From Cellvibrionales bacterium (GTDB taxonomy: Bacteria > Pseudomonadota > Gammaproteobacteria > Pseudomonadales > JAHEIH01), in assembly GCA_024639455.1 (NCBI GenBank), contig JAHEIH010000001.1, positions 1-64,000 on the forward strand: DNA of 64,000 nt, read 5' to 3'. The translations under genes and the position numbers were made by a program. This document shows positions 3,866 to 27,198 of this stretch, piece by piece; within the stretch, counting starts at the first letter, position 1, and each line of letters starts with the position of its first letter. Under the pieces are notes generated by a model. The model was given only the letters and a program-made list of their open reading frames with translations. It searched no databases and was not told the DNA's origin.

Positions 3866-6800
3866 ATGGGTGTTCTTTCTAGCGCGGTAACTCACTACCG
3901 CAGTACTTTTTCGGTGTTGCTGCTGTTAATGGCCGTCAGTGTCTACAGCTATTTTACGATTCCATTAGAAGCCACCCCGCGGGTTAAAGTCCCCTATGTG
4001 TTGGTATCGGTCGTGCTTTTTGGCGTATCGCCGGAGGATGCATCTCGCTTATTGGTTCGTCCTATTGAAAAGGAATTGCGCGCCGTAGAGGGTATCGAAG
4101 AGGTTCGAGCGGTAGGTAGAGAGTCTGTCGCGACTGTGATCATTAAATTTGAAGCGGGTGCCGTTAAATCGGATAAGGCGGTTAATGATGTTCGCGTGGC
4201 GATAGATCGCGCCAAAGCTGAATTACCCATTGATGCTGAAGAACCCATTGTAAAAGAACTTACCGCCGACGATTTTCCTGCCATTACCATTGCCTTTTCG
4301 ATGTCGGATGGCGCGACCGAGCGCATGGTGTTCCAAACAGCGCAGATGATTCAGCGCGAAGTTGAAGGGTTGAGCGGTGTGTTAGAGGCTACCCTTAGTG
4401 GAGAGCGTGAGGAATTAGTCGAGATCGTTTTAGATCCCTCCAAGCTAGAAAACTACGGCTTAACTGCCGAATCTTTCGCGCAAATTCTCAGTGCGAATAA
4501 CTTGCTGATTCCCGCCGGCGATATTGACTACGGTCGAGGCCGATTCCCAGTAAAAGTCCCCGCGCTTATCGAGCAATATGAAGATGTTGCCAATATACCC
4601 GTCCTGTCAAATGCCAATGGTACCGTCTTGCTGTCTGATGTGGCCGAGGTTCGGCGAACCTTCAAGGACGCGATGAACTTCAGTAATTTCAACGGCGAGC
4701 CAGCGATTTTGTTGGAGGTCAATAAACGCGTTGAAGCCAATCAAATAGAAGTCGCTGCGTTAGTCCGTGAAAAAATCGATGCGATCGCAGATAGGATTCC
4801 CCGCGGCGTTACCGTCTCCTACGCCTTTGATTTGTCGCAGTTCTCACGGGGCCTTATCGAAGAGATGCGAGGTAATATCCTTACCGCCGTGGTATTGGTA
4901 ATGGTTATCGTCGTGGGGGCGCTTGGCTTTAAAACGGGGGTGTTGGTTGGACTTGGTATTCCATTTTCTTTGCTCTTATCCCTCATCGCCTTGCATGCGC
5001 TAGCCTACTCGTTCAATTTCCTGGTCATGTTTGGCATGTTGTTGGCTCTGGGGATGTTGATTGACGGCCCCATCGTTATTTCTGAATTTGCCAACCGCAA
5101 AATGGCGGAAGGCCTGGGTAACAGAATGGCCTACATGGTGGCGGTAAGGCGCATGTTCTGGCCTGTGATGGCATCGACCGCCACCACCTTGGCGGCTTTT
5201 TTACCTATGATGTTTTGGCCGGGCATTGCTGGCGATTTCATGAAGTATCTTCCCGTCACGGTATTCAGTGTGCTGCTATGCTCGCTGGCGTATGCACTGT
5301 TTTTTGCACCGGTGTTGGGTTCTCTGATTCCCAGTTCAACAATGGACATCAAAACGCGTAGTTATTTGAGGCATCTTGAAGAAGATGACCCACTTGTTTT
5401 AGGTGGCTACACCGGCGCTTATGCTCGTGGTCTTTACCGGGTTATCCGCCATCCAATAAAGAGTTTGTCGTTCGCCCTGCTGGTGGTTTTTGCCATTTTT
5501 GAAATATATGGATCATTTAATAACGGCGTGATCTTTTTTGCTGAAACGGAAGAAACCGCCGGTATTGTGGCAGTTCGTGCTCAGGGCAACTTATCGGTTG
5601 AAGAGACGAGGAAAATTGTAGCGGACGTTGAGACGCGTTTGTTGACCCTAGAAGAAGTAAAACTGATCAACACGCGAAGCGGGGGAACGCGCTCAGCAAG
5701 AATTGCCTCCAAGGATGAAGTGGCGAATATTCTGGTGGAGTTACATGATCCTAAATCATTTGATCGTTCAACCCGCGAAGTGTTTGAGGAGATGCGTGAG
5801 ATTACTCGCGATATTCCAGGTATTTATATTTCCGCGGAAGTATTTGAAGGTGGCCCACAAGTTGGTAAGCCAATTCAAATTCAGTTGGAAAGTATTAACC
5901 GCGAGAAATTGTTATCTACGACCCGCTACCTTCAGCAGGTGGTTGAAAACCAAATCGAAGGTACACGTGATGTTACCGATACGACGCCACTGCCCGGCAT
6001 ACAATGGGAAATGGAGGTTGATCGGGCGTTAGCTGCACAAATGGGTGTCAACATTTTGCAGGTGGGTAGAGCAATACAGCTGGTCACGGATGGATTGTTG
6101 CTGGCGGAATATCGCCCAGATGACGCCAATGACGAAATCGAAATTCGTCTGCGCTACCCAGAGGAATACCGCGGGTTAAAAATGTTGCAGGAACTGACGG
6201 TCAGTACTCCGCAGGGTCCCGTTCCCGTGAGCACCTTTGTGAATCGTGTGCCTAAACCCAAGGTCGATAAGGTAGAGCGTGTCGACTATATCGATATCAT
6301 GTCGGTACAAGCGGATGTCCAAGCCGGTTATTTAGCCGATAACGTTGTTAAAAATATTCAGGCCTACCTTGAGAAAAATCCCGTCGATCCCGAGGTGCAA
6401 GTGGTTTTTCGCGGGGCAAACGAAGAGCAAGAAAACTCCTTACAGTTCCTAGCGTTGGCCTTTTTGCTCGCCTTATTCCTGATGTATGTGCTGTTGGTTA
6501 CCCAATTTAATAGCTTTTATCAGGCGTTTTTGATTTTGAGTTCGGTGGTCTTGTCCACGGCGGGTGTGCTGTTGGGCCTGCTCATTACGGGAGATCCCTT
6601 TAGTACCATTATGACCGGCGTGGGCGTCGTGGCGCTGGCGGGTATTGTGGTCAACAACAATATTGTTTTGATCGACACGTACAACGAGGTTTACAGCAAC
6701 GCCGAGGTGTCACGTATGGAGGCGGCCGTGCGAGCCTGTGCCCAGCGTTTGCGTCCCATTTTCTTGACGACGACAACGACTATCCTTGGCTTGCTGCCGC

Positions 6801-7012
6801 TAGCGGCGGGATACAGTATCGATTTGGTTGGCCGCGAAGTGGTGATCGATGGGGTAGTGTCCTCGTACTTTATCGCCGTAGCGCGCGCCATTGTGTTTGG
6901 CTTGTTCTTCGCGACCATCATGACACTGTTTTTAACCCCCGTGATGCTGATATTACCAGGTGTTATCAAGGATAAGTGGCTGGCGTGGCGCCAGCCTAAG
7001 CAGGCGCTTTAA
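3866..7012 (+). CDS. RND efflux permease with altered proton-relay residues
   Basis: 1048 aa, the usual RND length, with TM1, a large periplasmic loop, TM2-6, a second loop and TM8-12. It begins two bases after the adaptor, so the two are one unit. It belongs to the hydrophobe/amphiphile group by overall layout. In TM4 the usual Asp-Asp pair reads Asp400-Gly401 (LIDGPIV), and in TM10 the usual Lys is Asn930 (VVNNNIV). These positions match AcrB D407/D408 and K940, which carry protons, so coupling may differ from AcrB. I recall marine homologues with an IDG motif, so this is probably a subfamily trait rather than damage. The gene ends four bases inside the convergent transporter gene. Confidence 0.92.
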   Translation: MGVLSSAVTHYRSTFSVLLLLMAVSVYSYFTIPLEATPRVKVPYVLVSVVLFGVSPEDASRLLVRPIEKELRAVEGIEEVRAVGRESVATVIIKFEAGAVKSDKAVNDVRVAIDRAKAELPIDAEEPIVKELTADDFPAITIAFSMSDGATERMVFQTAQMIQREVEGLSGVLEATLSGEREELVEIVLDPSKLENYGLTAESFAQILSANNLLIPAGDIDYGRGRFPVKVPALIEQYEDVANIPVLSNANGTVLLSDVAEVRRTFKDAMNFSNFNGEPAILLEVNKRVEANQIEVAALVREKIDAIADRIPRGVTVSYAFDLSQFSRGLIEEMRGNILTAVVLVMVIVVGALGFKTGVLVGLGIPFSLLLSLIALHALAYSFNFLVMFGMLLALGMLIDGPIVISEFANRKMAEGLGNRMAYMVAVRRMFWPVMASTATTLAAFLPMMFWPGIAGDFMKYLPVTVFSVLLCSLAYALFFAPVLGSLIPSSTMDIKTRSYLRHLEEDDPLVLGGYTGAYARGLYRVIRHPIKSLSFALLVVFAIFEIYGSFNNGVIFFAETEETAGIVAVRAQGNLSVEETRKIVADVETRLLTLEEVKLINTRSGGTRSARIASKDEVANILVELHDPKSFDRSTREVFEEMREITRDIPGIYISAEVFEGGPQVGKPIQIQLESINREKLLSTTRYLQQVVENQIEGTRDVTDTTPLPGIQWEMEVDRALAAQMGVNILQVGRAIQLVTDGLLLAEYRPDDANDEIEIRLRYPEEYRGLKMLQELTVSTPQGPVPVSTFVNRVPKPKVDKVERVDYIDIMSVQADVQAGYLADNVVKNIQAYLEKNPVDPEVQVVFRGANEEQENSLQFLALAFLLALFLMYVLLVTQFNSFYQAFLILSSVVLSTAGVLLGLLITGDPFSTIMTGVGVVALAGIVVNNNIVLIDTYNEVYSNAEVSRMEAAVRACAQRLRPIFLTTTTTILGLLPLAAGYSIDLVGREVVIDGVVSSYFIAVARAIVFGLFFATIMTLFLTPVMLILPGVIKDKWLAWRQPKQAL

Positions 7013-18087: not shown

Positions 18088-19131
18088 GTGTTTAAAGTAG
18101 CCATGGTGGGGTGGGGCATGTCGGCTAAGACCTTCCACCTACCGTTCATCGAAACCAACGAGTCATTACAGTTGGCAGCTCTGGTGACATCGCAGCAAGA
18201 GTCGTGTCGAGCGAAGTACCCCGGTGTTGTTCTCCATTCCTCGGTCGATGCCCTTGTCGCCAGAGGCGGTATTGATGTAGCTGTTGTCGCGACTCCCAAT
18301 CATTTGCATTATTCGCAGGCCAAACAGTTACTGAGTCAGGGCATTTCTGTGGTAGTGGACAAACCTGCTACGTTGATGACAGACGACCTCGCCGACCTCT
18401 ATGCTACTGCTCAAAAGCATGGGGTTTGGTTGGCGGTGTTTCACAATCGACGTTGTGATGGCGACTTCCTTGGCTTGCAGCAGGCCTTGCAGAGCGGTGA
18501 GTTGGGTCAGCCACGAGTGTTGTTAAATCAATTTGATCGATTTCGCCCCACGCCCCGTGATCGCTGGCGCGAGCATGCCATTGATGGGGCGGGTATCTGG
18601 TACGATCTGGGGCCACACTTGGTGGATCAAACGCTGTGTTTATTTGGTCGCCCCAATGCGGTGACCGCCTCGTTGCGGGCGTTGCGCGAGGGTTCTCAAA
18701 ATATTGATTACTTTAATGTCGTTCTGCACTACCTAGATAAAGAAGTGGTGCTGCGCAGCTCGCCTTTCTGTTGTGACCCCATGCTTCGTTATCAGTTGGA
18801 GACCGATCGTGGCACATGGCGGAAATATGGCCTTGATCCGCAAGAGGATCAATTAAAGGCAGGTGTGACGCCAGGCACTGATTCTTGGTGCGAACAGCTT
18901 CCCGTTCAGCACGCGTTGTGGTCCGACACGTCTGGGATTGCCCAAGTCGATATTGCCGCGGGGGACTACGGCGCGTTTTATCGATCCGTGGCGCGAGCGT
19001 TGGCTGGAGAGGGCCTCGCGGCTCTCGCAGTGACGCCACAGCAGGCGATAGATGTCGCCACAATTATAGACGCTGCTCAATTGAGTGAGCAGCGTGGTGA
19101 GCGCGTGGTAGTGCCCTGGCGGTCGATATAA
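18088..19131 (+). CDS. Gfo/Idh/MocA family oxidoreductase (YdgJ-like)
   Basis: 347 aa from GTG 18088 with GAGG eight bases before it, nine bases after the RND permease, so possibly read through from that unit. Rossmann motif GWGMSAKTFH at residues 8-17, active-site VDKPATL near 93 and the C-terminal domain with YDLGPHLVDQ. The sequence style (GMSAKTFHLPFI, VATPNHLHY, GAGIWYDLGPH) is that of the E. coli YdgJ/YhhX branch. Substrate unknown, probably a sugar or cyclitol. Confidence 0.9.
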   Translation: MFKVAMVGWGMSAKTFHLPFIETNESLQLAALVTSQQESCRAKYPGVVLHSSVDALVARGGIDVAVVATPNHLHYSQAKQLLSQGISVVVDKPATLMTDDLADLYATAQKHGVWLAVFHNRRCDGDFLGLQQALQSGELGQPRVLLNQFDRFRPTPRDRWREHAIDGAGIWYDLGPHLVDQTLCLFGRPNAVTASLRALREGSQNIDYFNVVLHYLDKEVVLRSSPFCCDPMLRYQLETDRGTWRKYGLDPQEDQLKAGVTPGTDSWCEQLPVQHALWSDTSGIAQVDIAAGDYGAFYRSVARALAGEGLAALAVTPQQAIDVATIIDAAQLSEQRGERVVVPWRSI

Positions 19132-19151
19132 GTGATGTCGTATAGCCTGCC

Positions 19152-19406
19152 CTATAAGGGGGTGCGTACTACAAATTGCTGTTCTCTATCCGCTATCTTG
19201 CTTTCTACCGCTTTCAAGCGGGTTTCAATTTGTATCTTTTTACGCTGATCAATATAGCGTCGCAGTGCGTTTTCGGATGATTCGCGCAACGCCTGCTTAC
19301 TTTCGATGACTTTTACCTCAAGGCTAGGTTGTGCGCTGTTGTCAGCGTTTGCCTGGGTACTTAGCAGACCAAATAATAGTGCGGTAGTGAATGATTTAGT
19401 GTTCAT
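19152..19406 (-). CDS. Small exported protein of unknown function
   Basis: 84 aa. GAGAGGAA six bases before ATG 19406 is a strong ribosome site, which supports a real gene. A signal peptide (about residues 1-21, ending TQANA) is followed by a charged, helix-forming body rich in K, E, R and Q (ESKQALRESSENALRRYID and KIQIETRLKAVESKIADRE), likely a short periplasmic coiled coil. I do not recognise the family. It lies between the second RND unit and the frameshifted CadC-like gene on the same strand as the latter. An inverted repeat GTTAC-N5-GTAAC at 19442-19456, 36 bases before the start, may be an operator. Confidence 0.7.
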   Translation of the reverse strand: MNTKSFTTALLFGLLSTQANADNSAQPSLEVKVIESKQALRESSENALRRYIDQRKKIQIETRLKAVESKIADREQQFVVRTPL

Positions 19407-19620
19407 GTTTCCTCTCTTATCGCTTGTGGCGATTGCTGTTTGTTACTCTTGGTAACGCTTATGTCTATTATCGGCATTAATAGTAACAAATCAAGTTTTT
19501 TTGTATGAAATTTTTATGAATAAATATGCAAAAAAATCGAATAAATATATTTATTATTAGTCATTTAGTTACAGAAGAAACTTTTTTGAATTGGTGTAAC
19601 GGGGGGCTGTTAAGGTAACA

Positions 19621-20097
19621 CTAATGAAGGCAGCTAATGTAATTATCTGTCGCTCGGCAGGTGTCGGGAATACCTGCTTTTTGCCAGAAGGCGAGGTAGC
19701 CACTGTCCGCCACCCAATTCTGAAAGTCTGCATTGTCAAATAGCTTGCCAGCCCCTGGCCACCATAGGGTATAGCCATTCGCTAAGGTGTGGTCGCTAGC
19801 AAGCCAGGCCTTGGCAGCGATTTCTGAAAGATCGGCGAGCAGTGCGAGTTTGTGGATCAAATAGGCCTCTGTTGGAGATTGAGCTAGTGCTAGGTTAAGA
19901 CGCTGTTTTAGCGCTAATAGTTGGGGCTCATCTTGGGACTTGTGCCAGTCAATGTAGGCGGCGATTAGCTCGCTTTTTGGCGGGGATTTGTGTTCCAAGA
20001 AGCGACGCGCAGAGGAGTAATCGTTGCTTGAAATAGAAAATGCGCAACCAAGATAGTCTGTCTCCGCCATAGGTTTCAAAGCCGAATTCCTCTGCAT
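19621..20097 (-). pseudogene. 3' part of frameshifted CadC-like TPR regulator
   Basis: This frame holds the C-terminal portion of the gene that begins at 21157. Its own first ATG at 20097 directly follows a stop in the same frame and has no ribosome site. From about GCAFSISSNDYSSARRFLE it continues the tandem-repeat region, and it ends in the block NWVADSGYLAFWQKAGIPDTC, which is the usual end of CadC-like TPR regulators (D-x-x-x-x-W ... Y-W ... G-x-P-D-x-C). The two frames overlap from 19949 to 20097, and the switch must lie between about 20040 and 20097. See the partner entry and the finding. Confidence 0.7.
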
Positions 20098-21157
20098 TCA
20101 GTAAGGTGGCTTCAGCGTCCGAAGGCATACCTTGTTGCAGTAAGGCATCAGCGAGATCACCCTGAACTGTGCTATTCCTTGGGTCAAGTTGCTCGGCCTT
20201 TTCCAGCCACTCCATGGCCATTCGTAAGTAGCCCGTGCGCCAATAGAATTCACCTGCCGCACGTGCTATTTCGCTATTTTCTGGCTCCAATCGCAATGCG
20301 TGTTGTATTCGGTAGTACTGCCGTCCCATGGCATTAAATTGCCAGTTTTCAGGAACATCTCCTGCAATAAGGTAGGCTTCAGCACTAGATGAGCATATGG
20401 CAAGCGCCTGCTTGGCTGTATTAACGGCGGTGTTTTGATGATTAATGCTTGGTGGGTGAAATTCGCCTCGCTGTGTGTAACTGGGCATTAAGTCCTGTGC
20501 GAAAGCGAGTGTTGACCACGCTTTCGCGAAATTAGGGCTTATCTTGATCGCATTGATTAGGTGTTCAATGGCTTGTTGTATTTCCTCTTCACCGCGACGA
20601 CCTAACAACGACTTAGCCGTAAAATAATATTCAATGGCCTCAATCTCTAAAGGCCAAAGGCAGGGTGGATTGGTCTCATTGCTCGTGGGATCTACGTTAT
20701 AGGCTGCATTTTGCTGTGGCCATAAAAAGATCACCGCGACCAATATCGTAAAGCAAACACCGAGTGAAATGGTGGCAAGCCAGCGAAAATTATCGGCGGT
20801 TTTGATGACTTCTTCGATATCGGGTGGTGCAACTTGGTGAGCGTGTTCGGCATGCAGCGTCCACTGGTAACCGCGTTTCCGGTGTGTAACCAGTAGCTCT
20901 TGTTCTATGCCTAGTTCGTGGAAGGCGGAACGTATACGATAAATGATACGGTTGACGGCTTCCTCATTAACGAGGCGATCGTGCCATACACTGTGGATGA
21001 GTTCGTCGCGGGTGAGAATTTGATTGCTATGGGTTAGAAAAAAAACCAAGCAGTCCATCACCTTGGGTTCAAGGTGCACGTGCTTGTCGCCCCGCGAGAT
21101 TGCATTATTCTCAAGTGCTATTACGCAGTCTAATACGTAGTAACGTTCGCTTTCCAT
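19949..21157 (-). CDS. CadC/ToxR-like membrane transcriptional regulator with TPR region, probably frameshifted
   Basis: 402 aa as read. N-terminal OmpR/ToxR-type winged helix (about residues 5-105, with the RKRGYQW wing), one membrane helix at about 124-146, and a periplasmic region with TPR-like repeats from about 165 (GRRGEEEIQQAIEHLINAIK; then LRLEPENSEIARAAGEFYWRTG; MEWLEKAEQLDPRNSTVQG). After residue about 360 the frame runs into an unlikely tail (YFKQRLLLCASLLG, KKRANRRLH) while the next frame (+1) carries the expected C-terminus, so one extra base or two missing bases seem to break the gene. The DNA-binding and membrane parts are intact. Target genes unknown; the neighbouring small secreted proteins and the divergent ToxR-like gene are candidates. 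Confidence 0.8.
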   Translation of the reverse strand: MESERYYVLDCVIALENNAISRGDKHVHLEPKVMDCLVFFLTHSNQILTRDELIHSVWHDRLVNEEAVNRIIYRIRSAFHELGIEQELLVTHRKRGYQWTLHAEHAHQVAPPDIEEVIKTADNFRWLATISLGVCFTILVAVIFLWPQQNAAYNVDPTSNETNPPCLWPLEIEAIEYYFTAKSLLGRRGEEEIQQAIEHLINAIKISPNFAKAWSTLAFAQDLMPSYTQRGEFHPPSINHQNTAVNTAKQALAICSSSAEAYLIAGDVPENWQFNAMGRQYYRIQHALRLEPENSEIARAAGEFYWRTGYLRMAMEWLEKAEQLDPRNSTVQGDLADALLQQGMPSDAEATLLNAEEFGFETYGGDRLSWLRIFYFKQRLLLCASLLGTQIPAKKRANRRLH

Positions 21158-21570
21158 CAGTGGATGTCTCCGCTTTCCTGTTAAGACCTTAATACATGTA
21201 GTTGAAAAGTGTTTGTTGCGCGAGGACGCAGCGAATGTATGCCGTTATGATTTTTAAGATATTGATTTTTATTGTTTTTAATTGGTGGTCGTCGTGTGAC
21301 GGGCTTGTAAATATGGTAGCTGAAATTATTATATTGGCTTGAAATATGCGTAAAAGTGCTTTAATTCAGTCAATTAAAAAACCAGAGTAAATTCATTTCC
21401 TTAGCAATCATTACCTCATCATCATCTTTCCATCATGCTTTAAAAGCCGTTAAAGCGTAGTGTCCATATCCGGCGAAGATGATGGAAAAGAAATATTTGT
21501 CTGAACTGCATCCAGAGGGGCGGTTTTTTACATCTATAATGTATGAATCATTCTTTGCGCTGAGGCAGCT
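21158..21570. other. 413-bp gap between two divergent wHTH regulators
   Basis: AT-rich, without a convincing gene. It contains an imperfect inverted repeat: CTTTCCATCAT (21426-21436) against ATGATGGAAAAG (21479-21490), one base bulged, with a 42-base loop. Short open frames crossing it (for example on the minus strand at 21433-21693) have no ribosome site and are shadows of the regulator downstream. It probably holds the two divergent promoters, which I cannot place. Confidence 0.5.
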
Positions 21571-21957
21571 ATGCACATTATCAAAGTGGGTGATTGTGAA
21601 TATTGCGAAGATACTGGTGAGCTGCGTATGGGCTCTGACATTGAACACCTGCAACCCCAGGTTGCCAAAGTTTTTGTTTGCTTGGCAACACACGTTGACG
21701 AAGTTGTGAGTCGCGATGAATTAATGGATAAGGCGTGGCACCATCAAGTGATATCTGACGAATGTCTAACGCGCTGTATCAGTGTTATTCGTAAGATCCT
21801 CAAGCGTCACAACAGCCACGTGCACGTTGAGACGCTTCACAAACGGGGGTATCGCATGATCTGTGATGAGTCACCTTTCCATGCGGCTCTCGACAAAATG
21901 CCTTTTGTCATTGCTGCTATGCTGCTATTGATGTTTGGTGTTGCCGTTTTCTTATAA
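21571..21957 (+). CDS. Minimal ToxR-like regulator: winged helix plus C-terminal membrane helix
   Basis: 128 aa with GAGG six bases before ATG 21571. Residues about 5-105 form an OmpR/ToxR-type winged helix: the beta-strand start, VVSRDELMDKAWHH, the recognition helix region CLTRCISVIRKILK and the wing HKRGYRM. After a short linker, residues about 109-127 (MPFVIAAMLLLMFGVAVFL) form one membrane helix, and the protein stops there. So it has no periplasmic sensor part, unlike ToxR or CadC. It could be tail-anchored and rely on a partner protein for sensing, as TcpP/TcpH and ToxR/ToxS do. Divergent from the CadC-like gene. Confidence 0.85.
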   Translation: MHIIKVGDCEYCEDTGELRMGSDIEHLQPQVAKVFVCLATHVDEVVSRDELMDKAWHHQVISDECLTRCISVIRKILKRHNSHVHVETLHKRGYRMICDESPFHAALDKMPFVIAAMLLLMFGVAVFL

Positions 21958-22096
21958 GTGTTAAATCTGACTTTTAAATTTCAACTATCCCTGTGGCTGT
22001 GTTCACCTTTCTACGCCCCTTTATGAAGCGGCGTTTTTTTTGACCTAACGTTTTTTAATTGATAATAATTTTATTGTATTTCATGGGCTTGCGTAA

Positions 22097-22152
22097 TTTG
22101 ATCAGGTTTTTATTGGATTTTTATGTGGTTATGCAGGGGTTTTGATCAGGTT
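22097..22152 (+). promoter_or_regulatory. Phased 12-bp direct repeat upstream of the DUF3718-like gene
   Basis: TTTGATCAGGTT occurs at 22097-22108 and again, without mismatch, at 22141-22152. The copies start 44 bases apart, close to four helical turns. Winged-helix regulators of the OmpR/ToxR class commonly bind such direct repeats, and one is encoded just upstream. The second copy lies 69 bases before the next gene's ATG. Confidence 0.45.
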
Positions 22153-22220
22153 AATTATTATCCGCAGATTACATTGAATATGTCTGAACAAAAACCGCAC
22201 AGCGGATCAAGGAGAGCGTT

Positions 22221-22556
22221 ATGAAAGCAAAAGCATTGGGTATTTTTGGTTTGGTTACTGCTTTGGCAGCGGGTGCTGCGTTGGCTCACGACGGCAGTGC
22301 CATTGTTTACCAAGGCGATAATGGTGCAAAAAATGTTTGCCTGTCGATTATTCAGGATGATACTGCACAATTAAAAGCGGCCTTGCGTTGGGATCGTCTG
22401 AAATCACGTCAGATAGGTGATAATCAAGACAACTTCCGCTGTAATGATATGGCGCTATTGAAATTTGCCAACGATGTTGGAGCCTATAATGTCAGCAAAT
22501 ATCTCGACCGCAATAATCGAGGCCGTGTTGAAATGGAAGAAGTCGCTGCCCGTTAA
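22221..22556 (+). CDS. Small exported protein, DUF3718-like
   Basis: 111 aa. AAGGAG nine bases before ATG 22221. Signal peptide of about 22 residues (cleavage near ALAHD), then a compact domain with two cysteines (KNVCLSIIQDD and FRCNDMALLKFA). The VC...DD...RCND...FA layout resembles DUF3718 proteins of Shewanella and Alteromonas, from memory and not searched; the two Cys may form a disulfide. Function unknown. It is followed by a clear terminator and stands alone. Confidence 0.75.
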   Translation: MKAKALGIFGLVTALAAGAALAHDGSAIVYQGDNGAKNVCLSIIQDDTAQLKAALRWDRLKSRQIGDNQDNFRCNDMALLKFANDVGAYNVSKYLDRNNRGRVEMEEVAAR

Positions 22557-22580
22557 GCGTATTTTTTGAAAGCTTTTTCT

Positions 22581-22603
22581 AAGCCCTCCGTGGAGGGCTT
22601 TTT
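22581..22603 (+). terminator. Rho-independent terminator
   Basis: AAGCCCTC-CGTG-GAGGGCTT forms a perfect eight-pair stem with a four-base loop at 22581-22600, followed by T residues. It ends the DUF3718-like gene, 24 bases after the stop. Confidence 0.9.
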
Positions 22604-22674
22604 GCGTTCATTCATGTTTCTCAGCAGGTTTGGATGTATTGCCTATACTGTCGATAATCAATTAAGGAACGACA

Positions 22675-24591
22675 ATGGGTGCCTTGCAGCGGAAAATTTT
22701 TGTCATCACAACACTGGCAGTAATAGTCTTTATTTTTCTGTTAGTCAGTTACTACTATTCTGTGCTTAGCGTGCAGAATGACGTCGTTAAGAATGATGTA
22801 ATCCACGCCGCCAATATTAGATATGATGCCCTTCAGGATGCAGTAGAGGCAAAGCGCGATCAGGTGAGTGCCATGGCCAGTACCGAGGCCACCCGAGAAG
22901 CTCTTTTGGCGCTGGATAAAAGCTTTACTTTTGGTGCGAAAACCGCTGCATATGAGGTTGCCGCAAATAAAGCAGATAGTTATTTACGATTTTTATCGAC
23001 GATATCTAATGCAGATGACGTGTATTTGATAAATAAGGCAGGCGATGTCGTCCTGAGTTTGAGTCAAAACTCTCCTTATGATCACAACCTATTTGAAAGT
23101 ATTTTTCAAAACCTCGGTTTGGCCAAGGTCTCTCAAGCTGTCTTAAATGGGGCTCAAACGACGGTTTCACCGTTTGATTTACACACTGATTTTGGCCCCA
23201 AGCACACCAACAGAGTTAACATTCCGTCGGCTTATTTTGTGGCTCCTATCTATCACGAAAACGAGTTGCTGGGGGCGTTAGCGCTGAAGGCTTGGCCTGA
23301 AAACCTGCACACTATTTCGGGAAATTGGCGTGATATTCAAGAAGGCGGCATTATTGCGTTGTTTGCCTTTGCCGATAGTGAAGTGGTTTTGCTAAATTCT
23401 TTGCAACCCTATTTTACTCTCAATGCTGGCGATACTTTGATGTTTAATCAGTTTGATACTAAGGGTTCTGTGACTAGAATTGTCAACGGCTTGTCTGGTT
23501 ATCATCTGGTTAATGATATGGTTCACGGGCTCCCTCGATACGAGGCGTATCGTTCTATTCCTGAGATGAAACTGGGCCTTTTGATTTCAGTGCCTGAGCA
23601 GGCTATCTACGATGCCACTTGGCAAATCGTAAGGGTTCGAATCATGGTGGGCGGTTTTGTCTGTCTTGCGTTTTTACTATTTGCCATTGTTACCATGCGA
23701 CACGAACAAAGAGTCTACGCCACGATAGTTGATGTGTTGCGTCTGGCTTACGAAAAAGGCCAAATCCCTATATTTCCAGATGCCATTAAAACACGCTTTA
23801 GAGATGTGCTTACTTATTTGGACGGCATCTTGAACTATGAAAATAGTGAAAAACATAAGCGAGAGAGAGTCTTACAGCACATAAAGACACAGGAACATGC
23901 CGAGTCTTTACTGCTCGATGCAATTCACCTCAAAGCAATCGAGGCTCTCGAATTTGCCTATCAACGTAATAAAGCTGTACTCCTAGATAGCGACTTCAGG
24001 GGGCGGTTGGAAGGCACTCTGGGTCTCAGTCAGCAGCAGATTCAGGAGGCTATTTCGATGTTACATGAGGCTAAAGATCTGCAGAATTTAATAGCAGAGA
24101 AATTAGTCCTTGACCATCAGGGTTGTAATTTAATCGTGTTTTTGAACAGTGTTGATGAAGAGTATCGCTTGTTTGCCTCGCGTTCGGGTCGGCAATTTGA
24201 AATGAATTTGCCTGACTCGATTCCTGAAGCCATCATCTCAGATGTCAAACGATTGTCTCAGGTATTTAGTGTTCTTATTGATTACGCCTTTTCCATGTCC
24301 AGTAATGGCCGTGTTGAGTTACATGTCGATATCACCCAACGCACGGCAAATAATGCCACCTTTGCGATTGAGATAGAGTGTTGCGAAGGCCGCTTTAACC
24401 CGACACTGATTGCCATTATGGAAAAAGAATTCAGTGTGTCACTGGTAGAGCACGTGGTGACAAGTTTCATTGAGCACCTTGATATGGCTGTTTGCAAAGG
24501 CTTGCTCGCAAAAATGAATGCCAGCATGACGTTGGCTAATAAGCAAGAAGGGGCCTCAATCGGACTGAATATCAATTTCAGATTTGCATAA
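22675..24591 (+). CDS. Cache-domain membrane protein with degenerate histidine-kinase-like C-terminus
   Basis: 638 aa; AAGGA precedes ATG 22675. TM1 (about residues 8-30), a periplasmic region of about 280 residues that looks like a double Cache sensor (DDVYLINKAGDVVLSLSQ; SAYFVAPIYHENELLGALALK; MKLGLLISVPEQAIYDATW), TM2 at about 322-342. The cytosolic part has a helical linker but no recognisable phospho-acceptor H box. The end (about 505-638) aligns loosely with the HATPase domain: DVKRLSQVFSVLIDYAFSMSSNGRVEL mirrors the N-box region (only part need be compared), yet the essential Asn is Asp and the DxGxG and GxGLG boxes are missing. It is therefore probably a receptor without kinase activity. 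No response regulator is adjacent. Confidence 0.75.
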   Translation: MGALQRKIFVITTLAVIVFIFLLVSYYYSVLSVQNDVVKNDVIHAANIRYDALQDAVEAKRDQVSAMASTEATREALLALDKSFTFGAKTAAYEVAANKADSYLRFLSTISNADDVYLINKAGDVVLSLSQNSPYDHNLFESIFQNLGLAKVSQAVLNGAQTTVSPFDLHTDFGPKHTNRVNIPSAYFVAPIYHENELLGALALKAWPENLHTISGNWRDIQEGGIIALFAFADSEVVLLNSLQPYFTLNAGDTLMFNQFDTKGSVTRIVNGLSGYHLVNDMVHGLPRYEAYRSIPEMKLGLLISVPEQAIYDATWQIVRVRIMVGGFVCLAFLLFAIVTMRHEQRVYATIVDVLRLAYEKGQIPIFPDAIKTRFRDVLTYLDGILNYENSEKHKRERVLQHIKTQEHAESLLLDAIHLKAIEALEFAYQRNKAVLLDSDFRGRLEGTLGLSQQQIQEAISMLHEAKDLQNLIAEKLVLDHQGCNLIVFLNSVDEEYRLFASRSGRQFEMNLPDSIPEAIISDVKRLSQVFSVLIDYAFSMSSNGRVELHVDITQRTANNATFAIEIECCEGRFNPTLIAIMEKEFSVSLVEHVVTSFIEHLDMAVCKGLLAKMNASMTLANKQEGASIGLNINFRFA

Positions 24592-24593
24592 AA

Positions 24594-24613
24594 AAAGCAC
24601 CCGAGGGTGCTTT
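24594..24613. terminator. Bidirectional terminator
   Basis: AAAGCACC-CGAG-GGTGCTTT, an eight-pair perfect stem with A residues before and T residues after, lies three bases after the Cache-protein stop and 15 bases from the end of the convergent TetR gene, so it can serve both. Confidence 0.8.
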
Positions 24614-24627
24614 CGATCTTTCGTCAT

Positions 24628-25119
24628 TTAGCGTTGAAACTGGCTGACATAGTTGACGCTAAGGCGTTTAGCATAAAAATACTGATAGTAGTGGCAACGA
24701 AATTTCTCATCCATTGCACTGAGCGTTGTGTGCAGTTCATTGAGTTGTTGTTTGGCACTACTCAGTGGTGCTGTGTTGTTTTTTAATGCCTCTGCCGTTG
24801 CTAAAATAGCATCTTCATACAGTGTGGTGACGATAGCTTCAGTATTGGGGTAATACTGGTACAGTGAACCCATACAAATACCGGTAATCTCAGCGATTTT
24901 GGTAGATTTTAACGCTTCCATTGGCGTCTCTTGTAGCAACATTTCAGTGGTTTGTTTAATGCTGTCTACAAGAATCTTTGAGCGGGTTTGTTTGGGGTAC
25001 TTGCGCGGTTTAGGTGGCGCAAAATCGACACTTTCTTCAGTGTAGACTGAAAAAAACGGAGCGCCTACTTGAGTCGAGGGAGATGTATGGACATTTATTC
25101 CTTTGGCAATACCGTTCAT
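24628..25119 (-). CDS. TetR/AcrR family transcriptional regulator
   Basis: About 163 aa from ATG 25119 (MNGIAKGINV), preferred because AGGAAA stands eight bases before it; an ATG 33 bases further up has none. After an unusually long, low-complexity N-terminus of about 45 residues comes the TetR DNA-binding domain (QTRSKILVDSIKQTTEMLL ... ALKSTKIAEITGICMGSLYQYY). The rest, about 75 residues, is short for a TetR ligand domain (usually 120 or more), so ligand sensing may be reduced or the gene truncated. It is divergent from the AraC regulator. A near-palindrome TATTGCGCGATA (25175-25186) in the gap is a possible operator. Confidence 0.82.
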   Translation of the reverse strand: MNGIAKGINVHTSPSTQVGAPFFSVYTEESVDFAPPKPRKYPKQTRSKILVDSIKQTTEMLLQETPMEALKSTKIAEITGICMGSLYQYYPNTEAIVTTLYEDAILATAEALKNNTAPLSSAKQQLNELHTTLSAMDEKFRCHYYQYFYAKRLSVNYVSQFQR

Positions 25120-25315
25120 GCTCTGTTTCCTGTGCTCGTTGAAGAATGTCATTGTCTACGCAACGTTGAAACTATATTGCGCGATACACTGTTTTTATAA
25201 AAGGTCGTATTTCATCAAAAAAACTCACATTAATTATCATTTTTATTGTCATTGGCCGCTGCTATTGGTATTAATTGCCATTATTTTTCACTAAATTTAG
25301 CTTGGGAGTCGTACT

Positions 25316-26317
25316 ATGGCGACCATTTGTCACCACCACGTCATTACCAGCACCGCAGGGTTGCGTGCGAGTGGTATGGAGGCCGAACCCCTGTATGCGA
25401 GAGCCGCTATACATCCACGCTTGTTTGATGACCCGAATAAACGCGTTCATACAGATCAAGTAGCACGTTTGTTTAAATCGGTCATGGAAATGCTAGATGA
25501 CGAATTTATGGGATTTACCTCTCGTCCGATGCGGGTAGGTGTTTTTGCCATCATGGCCGAATTGGTAAGTCGTTGCCGCACTATGGGCGAGCTGCTCACT
25601 AAAGCGGCTGATTTTTATAATCTTGTCGGTAGCGACATATCAATGTCGCTTCAGCAAAGCGATCTATACGCCCGCTTTAATATTGATTTTGCCAAGCCAG
25701 AACTGGATGCTGAGCATTTTCTACGCGAATTTCTATTAGTGATCTGGCATCGCTTTCCCAGTTGGTTTGTCGGCTCAGCCATTCCATTAATCGAGACACA
25801 CTTCACCTTTGAAAAGCCTGCACATTTTAGTGAATTGAAGGTGATGTTTCCGTCTCGTCTGTATTTTAAGCAGCCCACAAACTGTTTGGTGTTTGACGCG
25901 GCAGAATTACAACGGCCATTGATTAGAACGGCCTATGAGTTGGACAATTTTTTGCAGAATGCGCCGGCTGACTTTATGACGATTCCCAGTTCAGAAGGTA
26001 GCCTCGAGCGTCAGCTAATGCGCTATCTGATTGATCCACGTGGAGGTGGAGTGCGCTCAATGAGCTTGCAGCAATCCGCGAAATTTTTAGGTATTAGCCA
26101 GCAAACCTTACATCGTAAACTACTGGCCGAAGGCACCAGCTTTCAAGCCATTAAAGATAGTCTACGCCGCGAGAAAGCTATTTCGTTGCTTTACGGTACG
26201 CACTCTGTGGAAGAGATATCAGCTTTGCTAGGTTTTGGAGAGGCCCGTTCCTTTACGCGCGCTTTCAAATTATGGACCGGCGTGTCACCGCGCGAATACC
26301 GCAATACACATCAATAA
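25316..26317 (+). CDS. AraC family transcriptional regulator
   Basis: 333 aa. The first two thirds match the helical arabinose-binding-type domain (PF12625 type) of OruR/VirF-like regulators (GVFAIMAELVSRCRTMGELL near residues 75-94), and the last 85 residues hold two helix-turn-helix motifs with SAKFLGISQQTLHRKLLAEG and GFGEARSFTRAFKLWTGVSPREYR. The hydrolase starts 11 bases downstream, so the two are one unit and this regulator may control it and perhaps the convergent beta-oxidation operon. The inducer is unknown; members of this subfamily often respond to acyl or amino-acid compounds. Confidence 0.9.
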   Translation: MATICHHHVITSTAGLRASGMEAEPLYARAAIHPRLFDDPNKRVHTDQVARLFKSVMEMLDDEFMGFTSRPMRVGVFAIMAELVSRCRTMGELLTKAADFYNLVGSDISMSLQQSDLYARFNIDFAKPELDAEHFLREFLLVIWHRFPSWFVGSAIPLIETHFTFEKPAHFSELKVMFPSRLYFKQPTNCLVFDAAELQRPLIRTAYELDNFLQNAPADFMTIPSSEGSLERQLMRYLIDPRGGGVRSMSLQQSAKFLGISQQTLHRKLLAEGTSFQAIKDSLRREKAISLLYGTHSVEEISALLGFGEARSFTRAFKLWTGVSPREYRNTHQ

Positions 26318-26328
26318 GAGAATCTTGT

Positions 26329-27198
26329 ATGTCGATAACTGCCAGTATGTTCAAACTGTTGATGCTCCTGAGTGGCTTTAAATTTTGGTTAGGATTGGCA
26401 TTCAAACATCCACCACAGCGTTTATTTACCCATTGGCCTAAGTTGTTATCATCTCGGTGGCCGGTGGTATGGCATGAGCTGGAAGGTCGCAAAATAGCGA
26501 CGCTTGATCCCCATGGCAAATGTGCAGGGCACGTGATTTATCTCCACGGTGGCGGTTATGCACTAGGATTTTTGCCGATGTTTATCCGCTTTGCGCGTCG
26601 TCTTGTCAGCGAACACAATTTGCGGGTGAGTCTACTCGATTACCCCTTGGCGCCTAAAGCTGGCGTCGATGAAGTGCAAGCCTTTGTCGCTGCCGCTTAC
26701 GCTAATTTGCGGCATCGTTATCCCGACGATAGGTTTAGTCTTTGTGGCGACTCGGCAGGTGGCGCTTTGGCCTTGGTGTTACTGCAGCAATTGCGCGACA
26801 TTGGCGAGGATATGCCCGCTAAGACTGTACTGATTTCGCCTTGGGTCGACGCGGATATGCAGCGAGATTTTGATCCTTGGTGCCGGCAAGAGGTGGTGTT
26901 GCAGCAAGCGGCGTTAGTGGCAGCCATCGACCAGTATCGCCGTCATTTACCCGTTGAGCACCCACGAATTTCACCTATAAATGGTGGTTTGCAGGGATTG
27001 GGTGAGGTAGCGTTGGTCGCAGGGGGAGGCGAGTTATTTTATCCTGACTTGTGTCGTTTGAAGCGAGAGCTTACAGCCAGTGATGGGACGTCCTTACTGT
27101 GGTTCGAAGGCACTGGTCTATGGCATGATTGGCTTTATTTTCCCCTGCCTGAGGCTAGAGTCACAAGGCGGGATATTGGCCGCTGGCTAGCGAGCTAG
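26329..27198 (+). CDS. Alpha/beta hydrolase of the hormone-sensitive lipase (GDSAG) type
   Basis: About 289 aa from ATG 26329 (AAGAGAA lies eight to ten bases before it); an in-frame ATG at 26272 inside the AraC gene is unlikely. It has the oxyanion HGGGYALGF motif (about residue 70), the nucleophile GDSAGGALAL (about 141) and late Asp/His in the FEGTGLWHDW region. Family members hydrolyse short- to medium-chain esters or lactones. The gene sits behind AraC and faces fatty-acid genes, so it might release acyl groups for them. Confidence 0.9.
   Translation: MSITASMFKLLMLLSGFKFWLGLAFKHPPQRLFTHWPKLLSSRWPVVWHELEGRKIATLDPHGKCAGHVIYLHGGGYALGFLPMFIRFARRLVSEHNLRVSLLDYPLAPKAGVDEVQAFVAAAYANLRHRYPDDRFSLCGDSAGGALALVLLQQLRDIGEDMPAKTVLISPWVDADMQRDFDPWCRQEVVLQQAALVAAIDQYRRHLPVEHPRISPINGGLQGLGEVALVAGGGELFYPDLCRLKRELTASDGTSLLWFEGTGLWHDWLYFPLPEARVTRRDIGRWLAS

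Follow-up and report, generated by a model that had tools for sequence, protein, structure and literature searches.

The window, that is, the whole stretch of DNA that was analysed, is the first 64 kb of a 230-kb contig (C22) from a 2.88-Mb genome, which is assembled in 29 contigs and 99.5% complete. The part discussed here contains the following features:

19152–19406, minus strand: small exported-looking protein of 84 residues, no family over the cut-off
19621–20097, minus strand: frame into which the C-terminal part of the CadC-like gene is putatively displaced, from coding potential
19949–21157, minus strand: CadC-like winged-helix regulator with a transmembrane stretch and TPRs, N-terminal part before the predicted frameshift (Trans_reg_C 53 bits, cut-off 26.2)
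21571–21957, plus strand: winged-helix regulator of 128 residues, called wHTH-TM below (Trans_reg_C 47.5 bits, cut-off 26.2)
22097–22151, plus strand: five tandem 11-bp direct repeats, the proposed operator of the DUF3718 gene (from repeat, matrix and surrogate analysis)
22221–22556, plus strand: DUF3718 exported protein of 111 residues (PF12514 25.2 bits, cut-off 22.5; hydrophobic N-terminus)
22581–22600, plus strand: terminator hairpin of the DUF3718 gene (8 pairs, then a T-run)
22675–24591, plus strand: Cache-like membrane receptor of 638 residues with a degenerate histidine-kinase end (dCache_1 and HATPase_c matches below threshold)

The initial annotation described two winged-helix membrane regulators in this region, and both indeed exceed the Trans_reg_C cut-off and have a transmembrane stretch. 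It also described two small exported proteins. This holds for the DUF3718 protein, from its family match and its hydrophobic N-terminus; the 84-residue protein has a start that looks like a signal peptide by eye, but with a short hydrophobic core in which no 19-mer reaches 1.4, and a search for it in three genomes gave a credible match only at its own place. The ribosome sites of both small genes, which the initial annotation called strong, are purine-rich (AAGGAGA for the DUF3718 gene and GAGAGG for the 84-residue one). The genes are separate units, also as described: they lie on opposite strands, a terminator follows the DUF3718 gene, and a stem-loop with a T-run, seen by eye at about 22015–22041 and absent from the list of the terminator scan, follows wHTH-TM. 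No RNA family has a match in 18900–25400.

The CadC-like protein has one transmembrane stretch (from residue 127). When codon usage is taken from 25 further long frames in the window, the coding potential passes, near position 20050, from the 402-residue CadC-like frame to an overlapping frame of 158 residues (20097–19621). A search of the 94 other genomes gave no relative of this overlapping frame, so that the frameshift is placed from coding potential and position; it suggests that the CadC-like gene is either a pseudogene or carrying an assembly error.

The receptor has two strong transmembrane stretches (from residues 8 and 323), and both of its family matches are below threshold: 23 bits for dCache_1 (cut-off 45) and 15.6 bits for HATPase_c (cut-off 26.4), with which we do not class it as a sensor histidine kinase. 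Histidine kinases have an HE.RTPL-like H-box and a DTG.G box; inspection of the translation by eye revealed neither. No full-length relative of the receptor turned up in 95 genomes, and its fold model is too poor to be used (pLDDT 38.8). A plasmid origin was considered and rejected, there being no match in plasmids.

The gene order was compared with that of one congener (G001, approximately 75% complete), whose corresponding locus is on contig C58 (stretch L070). The order there is RND pump, Gfo/Idh oxidoreductase, wHTH-TM, DUF3718, TetR, AraC, ECH and SDR. wHTH-TM and DUF3718 are thus side by side and in the same order in both species, with 263 nt between the two frames in the window and 156 nt in G001. 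The CadC-like gene, the 84-residue gene and the receptor gene are all absent from the G001 locus, and a tblastn search of the contig leaves no credible trace of them (best E 1.6); this absence holds for the locus, since a quarter of the G001 genome is missing. Elsewhere in G001, the receptor finds kinase-domain matches only (best E 1.5e-4), and the CadC-like query matches only wHTH-TM itself. Relative to G001 there are three insertion points, two of which hold the three lineage-specific genes and the third an esterase, and the four lowest third-position GC values among the 42 window frames of at least 200 residues lie in 19949–27198. The CadC-like, 84-residue and receptor genes are lineage-specific neighbours that stand outside the conserved pair. 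The flanks are conserved too, with identities between the window and G001 of 66% for the RND pump, 49% for the oxidoreductase, 73% for TetR, 56% for AraC, 46% for ECH and 70% for SDR, so that the kept adjacency of the pair, in a comparison with a single congener, is no proof of a functional link.

The closest solved chain to wHTH-TM is the DNA-binding domain of CadC (5ju7, E 1.3e-12), and ToxR (8b4b) matches with an E value of 7.9e-9. Like the ToxR/CadC-like transmembrane regulators, wHTH-TM has an N-terminal winged helix and a single transmembrane helix after it, which on hydropathy alone starts at residue 110 of 128. The chain ends with this helix in both species, with almost no periplasmic residues and no C-terminal periplasmic sensor domain in either, which is why we file wHTH-TM as a probable tail-anchored, VtrB-like form rather than as a sensor. 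The G001 orthologue (L070, 4336–4728) is 55.7% identical over 106 residues. In CadC, the residues that read the sequence are His66, Gln70 and Lys95, according to the part of the source available (PMC5430869); from our alignment to 5ju7, we map them to E64, R68 and K91 of wHTH-TM, and these three residues are identical in the G001 orthologue. Close orthologues of wHTH-TM (E < 1e-35) occur in 2 of the 95 genomes of the order, own genome included, and a scan of contigs with wHTH-TM alone gave no match.

Two side observations concern this type of protein. Residues 9–12 of wHTH-TM, in the cytoplasmic winged-helix domain, form a CxxC motif (GDCEYC in the window, GECSYC in G001), which might possibly be a redox or metal site. 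Short tail-anchored winged-helix proteins recur in two further genomes from this order, among unrelated neighbours (L046, 1390–1938, 182 residues; L041, 1327–1920, 197 residues), and the CxxC motif has no counterpart in these two.

The DUF3718 protein of the window, which is 44% identical to its G001 orthologue, is a divergent member of its family. Its cysteines C40 and C74 are invariant in 18 of the 18 aligned members, which suggests that they form a disulfide. DUF3718, a family of small exported proteins, is common in another bacterial family within the class (f185, 141 of 147 genomes) and rare elsewhere: at the level of the class it is found in 3 of 369 genomes (own genome and two from f185), and at the level of the order in 2 of 95, own genome included, which are the same two that have a close wHTH-TM orthologue. 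A scan of contigs with the DUF3718 alignment found only two loci, both in the MAG QJ.27 and on the contigs already known from G001. The fold model is too poor to be used (pLDDT 42.3). Against solved structures, the profile has only two matches, both weak (E 0.0031 and 0.19), to chains which we take, partly on our own reading, to be ankyrin-repeat proteins. The second half of the alignment looks ankyrin-repeat-like (CNG.SLL.FA...A..VG..L), the profile support being weak, and this hints at an ankyrin-like helix pair in DUF3718. A full-text literature search for 'DUF3718' found no paper.

Other DUF3718 genes occur in both species. In G001, a second, unlinked one is on contig C228 (stretch L072), at the end of which (6462–6806) a kinase gene, cut short by the contig border, has its end just upstream of the DUF3718 paralogue, on the same strand. 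In the genome of the window, contig C9 holds three tandem paralogues (L071, 4992–6646, about 162991–164645 of the contig), of which the first and third seem truncated or frameshifted by eye and the middle one intact; they are near an FKBP-type gene, and the intervening amylase-like gene is missing from the G001 locus.

Upstream of the DUF3718 gene of the window, the five units of the array read, in order, TTTGATCAGGT, TTTTATTGGAT, TTTTATGTGGT, TATGCAGGGGT and TTTGATCAGGT, the first being identical to the fifth. The 12-mer TTTGATCAGGTT occurs twice in this promoter, 44 bp apart, and its two copies begin the first and last units. In the whole 2.88-Mb genome there are only three exact copies, the two of the promoter and one on C9; the latter is intergenic by our heuristic, yet it lies within a long frame (412–1749 of L163), which we read by eye as an Fbp-like gene. 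In G001 there are two exact copies, and both are upstream of the unlinked DUF3718 gene on C228. None of 5000 surrogates had TTTGATCAGGTT twice, and 220 of 5000 shared some 12-mer with the window promoter.

A weight matrix was built from the five units of the window promoter only, and three units were scored at a period of 11. On C58 (11,792 bp), the best match (15.9 bits, against 4.6 for the next) is at 4797, 88 bp ahead of the DUF3718 orthologue. On C228 (6,806 bp), the two best matches (17.4 and 15.4 bits, next 6.0) are both upstream of the DUF3718 paralogue, where most of the score comes from the exact box TTTGATCAGGTT. Among 2000 first-order Markov surrogates of each promoter, 2 reached the score for C58 and 1 that for C228, and in the G001 promoters a period of 11 outscores periods of 9, 10, 12 and 13, as expected for a tandem 11-bp operator. 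The repeats had been noticed first and their register set by hand, so only the tests in G001 are independent. Taken one by one, the promoters show no significant self-similarity at lag 11 (p 0.06, 0.16 and 0.23); the values at lag 22 are 0.02, 0.17 and 0.19.

The array was also searched for elsewhere. It is missing from the three paralogues on C9, and the region between wHTH-TM and the CadC-like gene has no convincing array (p about 0.2 with two units; 0.035 and 0.025 with three units in two shuffle runs). The second best three-unit match of the window (14.2 bits, at 24977) is inside the TetR gene. The 36 DUF3718 promoters of f185 contain neither an exact nor a one-mismatch copy of TTTGATCAGGTT, and no array. 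We do not claim a wider regulon: single-mismatch copies of TTTGATCAGGTT are nearly all in coding frames, and those that are intergenic by the heuristic lie in L173, L185, L192 and L210. The operator and the gene pair appear to be restricted to the genus, and it is plausible that together they form a genus-restricted circuit.

We propose that wHTH-TM regulates the neighbouring DUF3718 gene through the 11-bp repeats, the two genes forming a regulator–target unit, and we would give this proposal an even chance. It is supported by the 11-bp direct-repeat operator, which is common to the DUF3718 promoters of the two species. It is also favoured because the pair has been kept adjacent in G001 though the proteins share only 44–56% identity, because a close wHTH-TM orthologue and DUF3718 occur in the same 2 of 95 genomes, and because the TTTGATCAGGTT copies and the best matches of the matrix fall at the DUF3718 promoters of G001. 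Head-to-tail binding to direct repeats of 11 nucleotides is known from PhoB (PMC4415409), on which the CadC domain can be superposed and which it resembles on DNA (PMC5430869), and VtrB is a precedent for a tail-anchored regulator (PMC10971746), all this according to the parts of these sources available. These precedents, together with the conserved reading positions of wHTH-TM, make control of DUF3718 by wHTH-TM the likeliest reading. That a protein of the OmpR/PhoB type binds the repeats is, in our opinion, quite probable; if this is so, we lean towards the neighbouring wHTH-TM being that protein.

In the proposed mechanism, wHTH-TM would be a minimal regulator of the ToxR/CadC type, held in the inner membrane by its C-terminal helix and devoid of a periplasmic sensor. 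It would bind the repeats at 22097–22151 head-to-tail and control the DUF3718 gene, whose small, probably disulfide-bonded product would go to the periplasm. Its action on DUF3718 genes would be in trans, since the unlinked paralogue of the sister species has an operator of the same kind. The predicted promoter has a TATTAT −10 element at 22156–22161 and no good −35 element by eye, the −35 position being covered by the last repeats; it may be that wHTH-TM is an activator, which is a guess from this geometry. It may even be that the exported, disulfide-bonded DUF3718 protein reports the periplasmic state to the helix of wHTH-TM, this feedback replacing the sensor domain of ToxR and CadC, and that the scattered DUF3718 genes share one operator, but we consider this extension as improbable. 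Any envelope signal would likewise be hypothetical.

The main rival to control by wHTH-TM is that the repeats belong to a different response regulator of the OmpR/PhoB family, driven by a histidine kinase, and that wHTH-TM is a mere neighbour. What can be predicted from the repeats is a family of proteins rather than a particular gene; the G001 paralogue that has two exact boxes is on a different contig from wHTH-TM and comes directly after the end of a canonical kinase gene (HATPase_c 52 bits), and the paralogues on C9 are devoid of the array. On the contrary, wHTH-TM is the OmpR-type gene that adjoins DUF3718 in both species, its DNA-reading positions are conserved, and the stretches that were read showed no response regulator next to DUF3718 at either locus. 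We regard this explanation as possible, if on the unlikely side.

It is less probable still that the genes are chance neighbours, each a single unit unrelated to the others, in a region where insertions accumulate, the pair having stayed together through a generally kept gene order. The equally conserved flanking genes, the three insertion points and the low third-position GC values mentioned above agree with this idea. So does the rarity of the association elsewhere, which leads us to reject a general linkage between DUF3718 and such regulators: in f185, with our own loci set aside, a winged-helix gene is within about 1.5 kb at only 1 of 37 DUF3718 loci. However, chance leaves unexplained the operators shared by DUF3718 genes of two species. 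The one locus of f185 with such a gene is in genome G439 (L075, 2061–3204), where a CadC-like gene is divergent from a DUF3718 gene, approximately 0.3 kb away, which is an isolated case. Among the DUF3718 neighbours in f185 (71 proteins, with the G001 kinase end as the 72nd), a GTPase, a chemotaxis receptor and hydrolases from recurring loci predominate.

Last, the initial annotation proposed, from co-location only, that the five genes form one new envelope-sensing module whose neighbourhood should be conserved in relatives; we reject this as very improbable, because in G001 only wHTH-TM and DUF3718 are adjacent and three of the five genes are missing from the locus, which leaves a two-gene core, while the receptor lacks full-length relatives, the CadC-like gene appears frameshifted, and the genes are separate units on opposite strands.

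To our knowledge, the architecture is known in kind, for both the VtrB-like regulator and DUF3718, whereas the pairing and the operator are new. wHTH-TM has the same DNA-binding domain and single transmembrane helix as CadC/ToxR-like regulators, from which it differs in that it has no periplasmic sensor domain and ends with the membrane helix. VtrB of Vibrio parahaemolyticus governs a secretion system and is induced by VtrA, whereas beside wHTH-TM there is the gene of a single small exported protein, and none for a co-component. In co-component systems (ToxR/ToxS, VtrA/VtrC, PsaE/PsaF), a membrane winged-helix gene is likewise followed by a gene for a small envelope protein on the same strand. 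Compared to what the available part of their description gives (PMC9214523), the two frames here neither overlap nor appear to form one operon, being separated by the distances given above and by a likely terminator; wHTH-TM has no periplasmic domain, and the profile of the DUF3718 partner, whose fold model is unusable, matches only the ankyrin-repeat chains, weakly, and no lipocalin. The array has tandem 11-nucleotide direct-repeat units in common with the PHO box, but its unit TTTGATCAGGT does not resemble CTGTCAT, the motif of E. coli given in the part of the source available (PMC4415409). The window protein is above the curated cut-off of PF12514, and differs from its f185 relatives in that the 36 promoters of theirs that were searched do not have this operator.

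wHTH-TM would be a compact natural membrane transcription factor without a sensor domain. As for the family of its putative target, the candidate regulator and its operator would give a first handle on when a DUF3718 gene is used.
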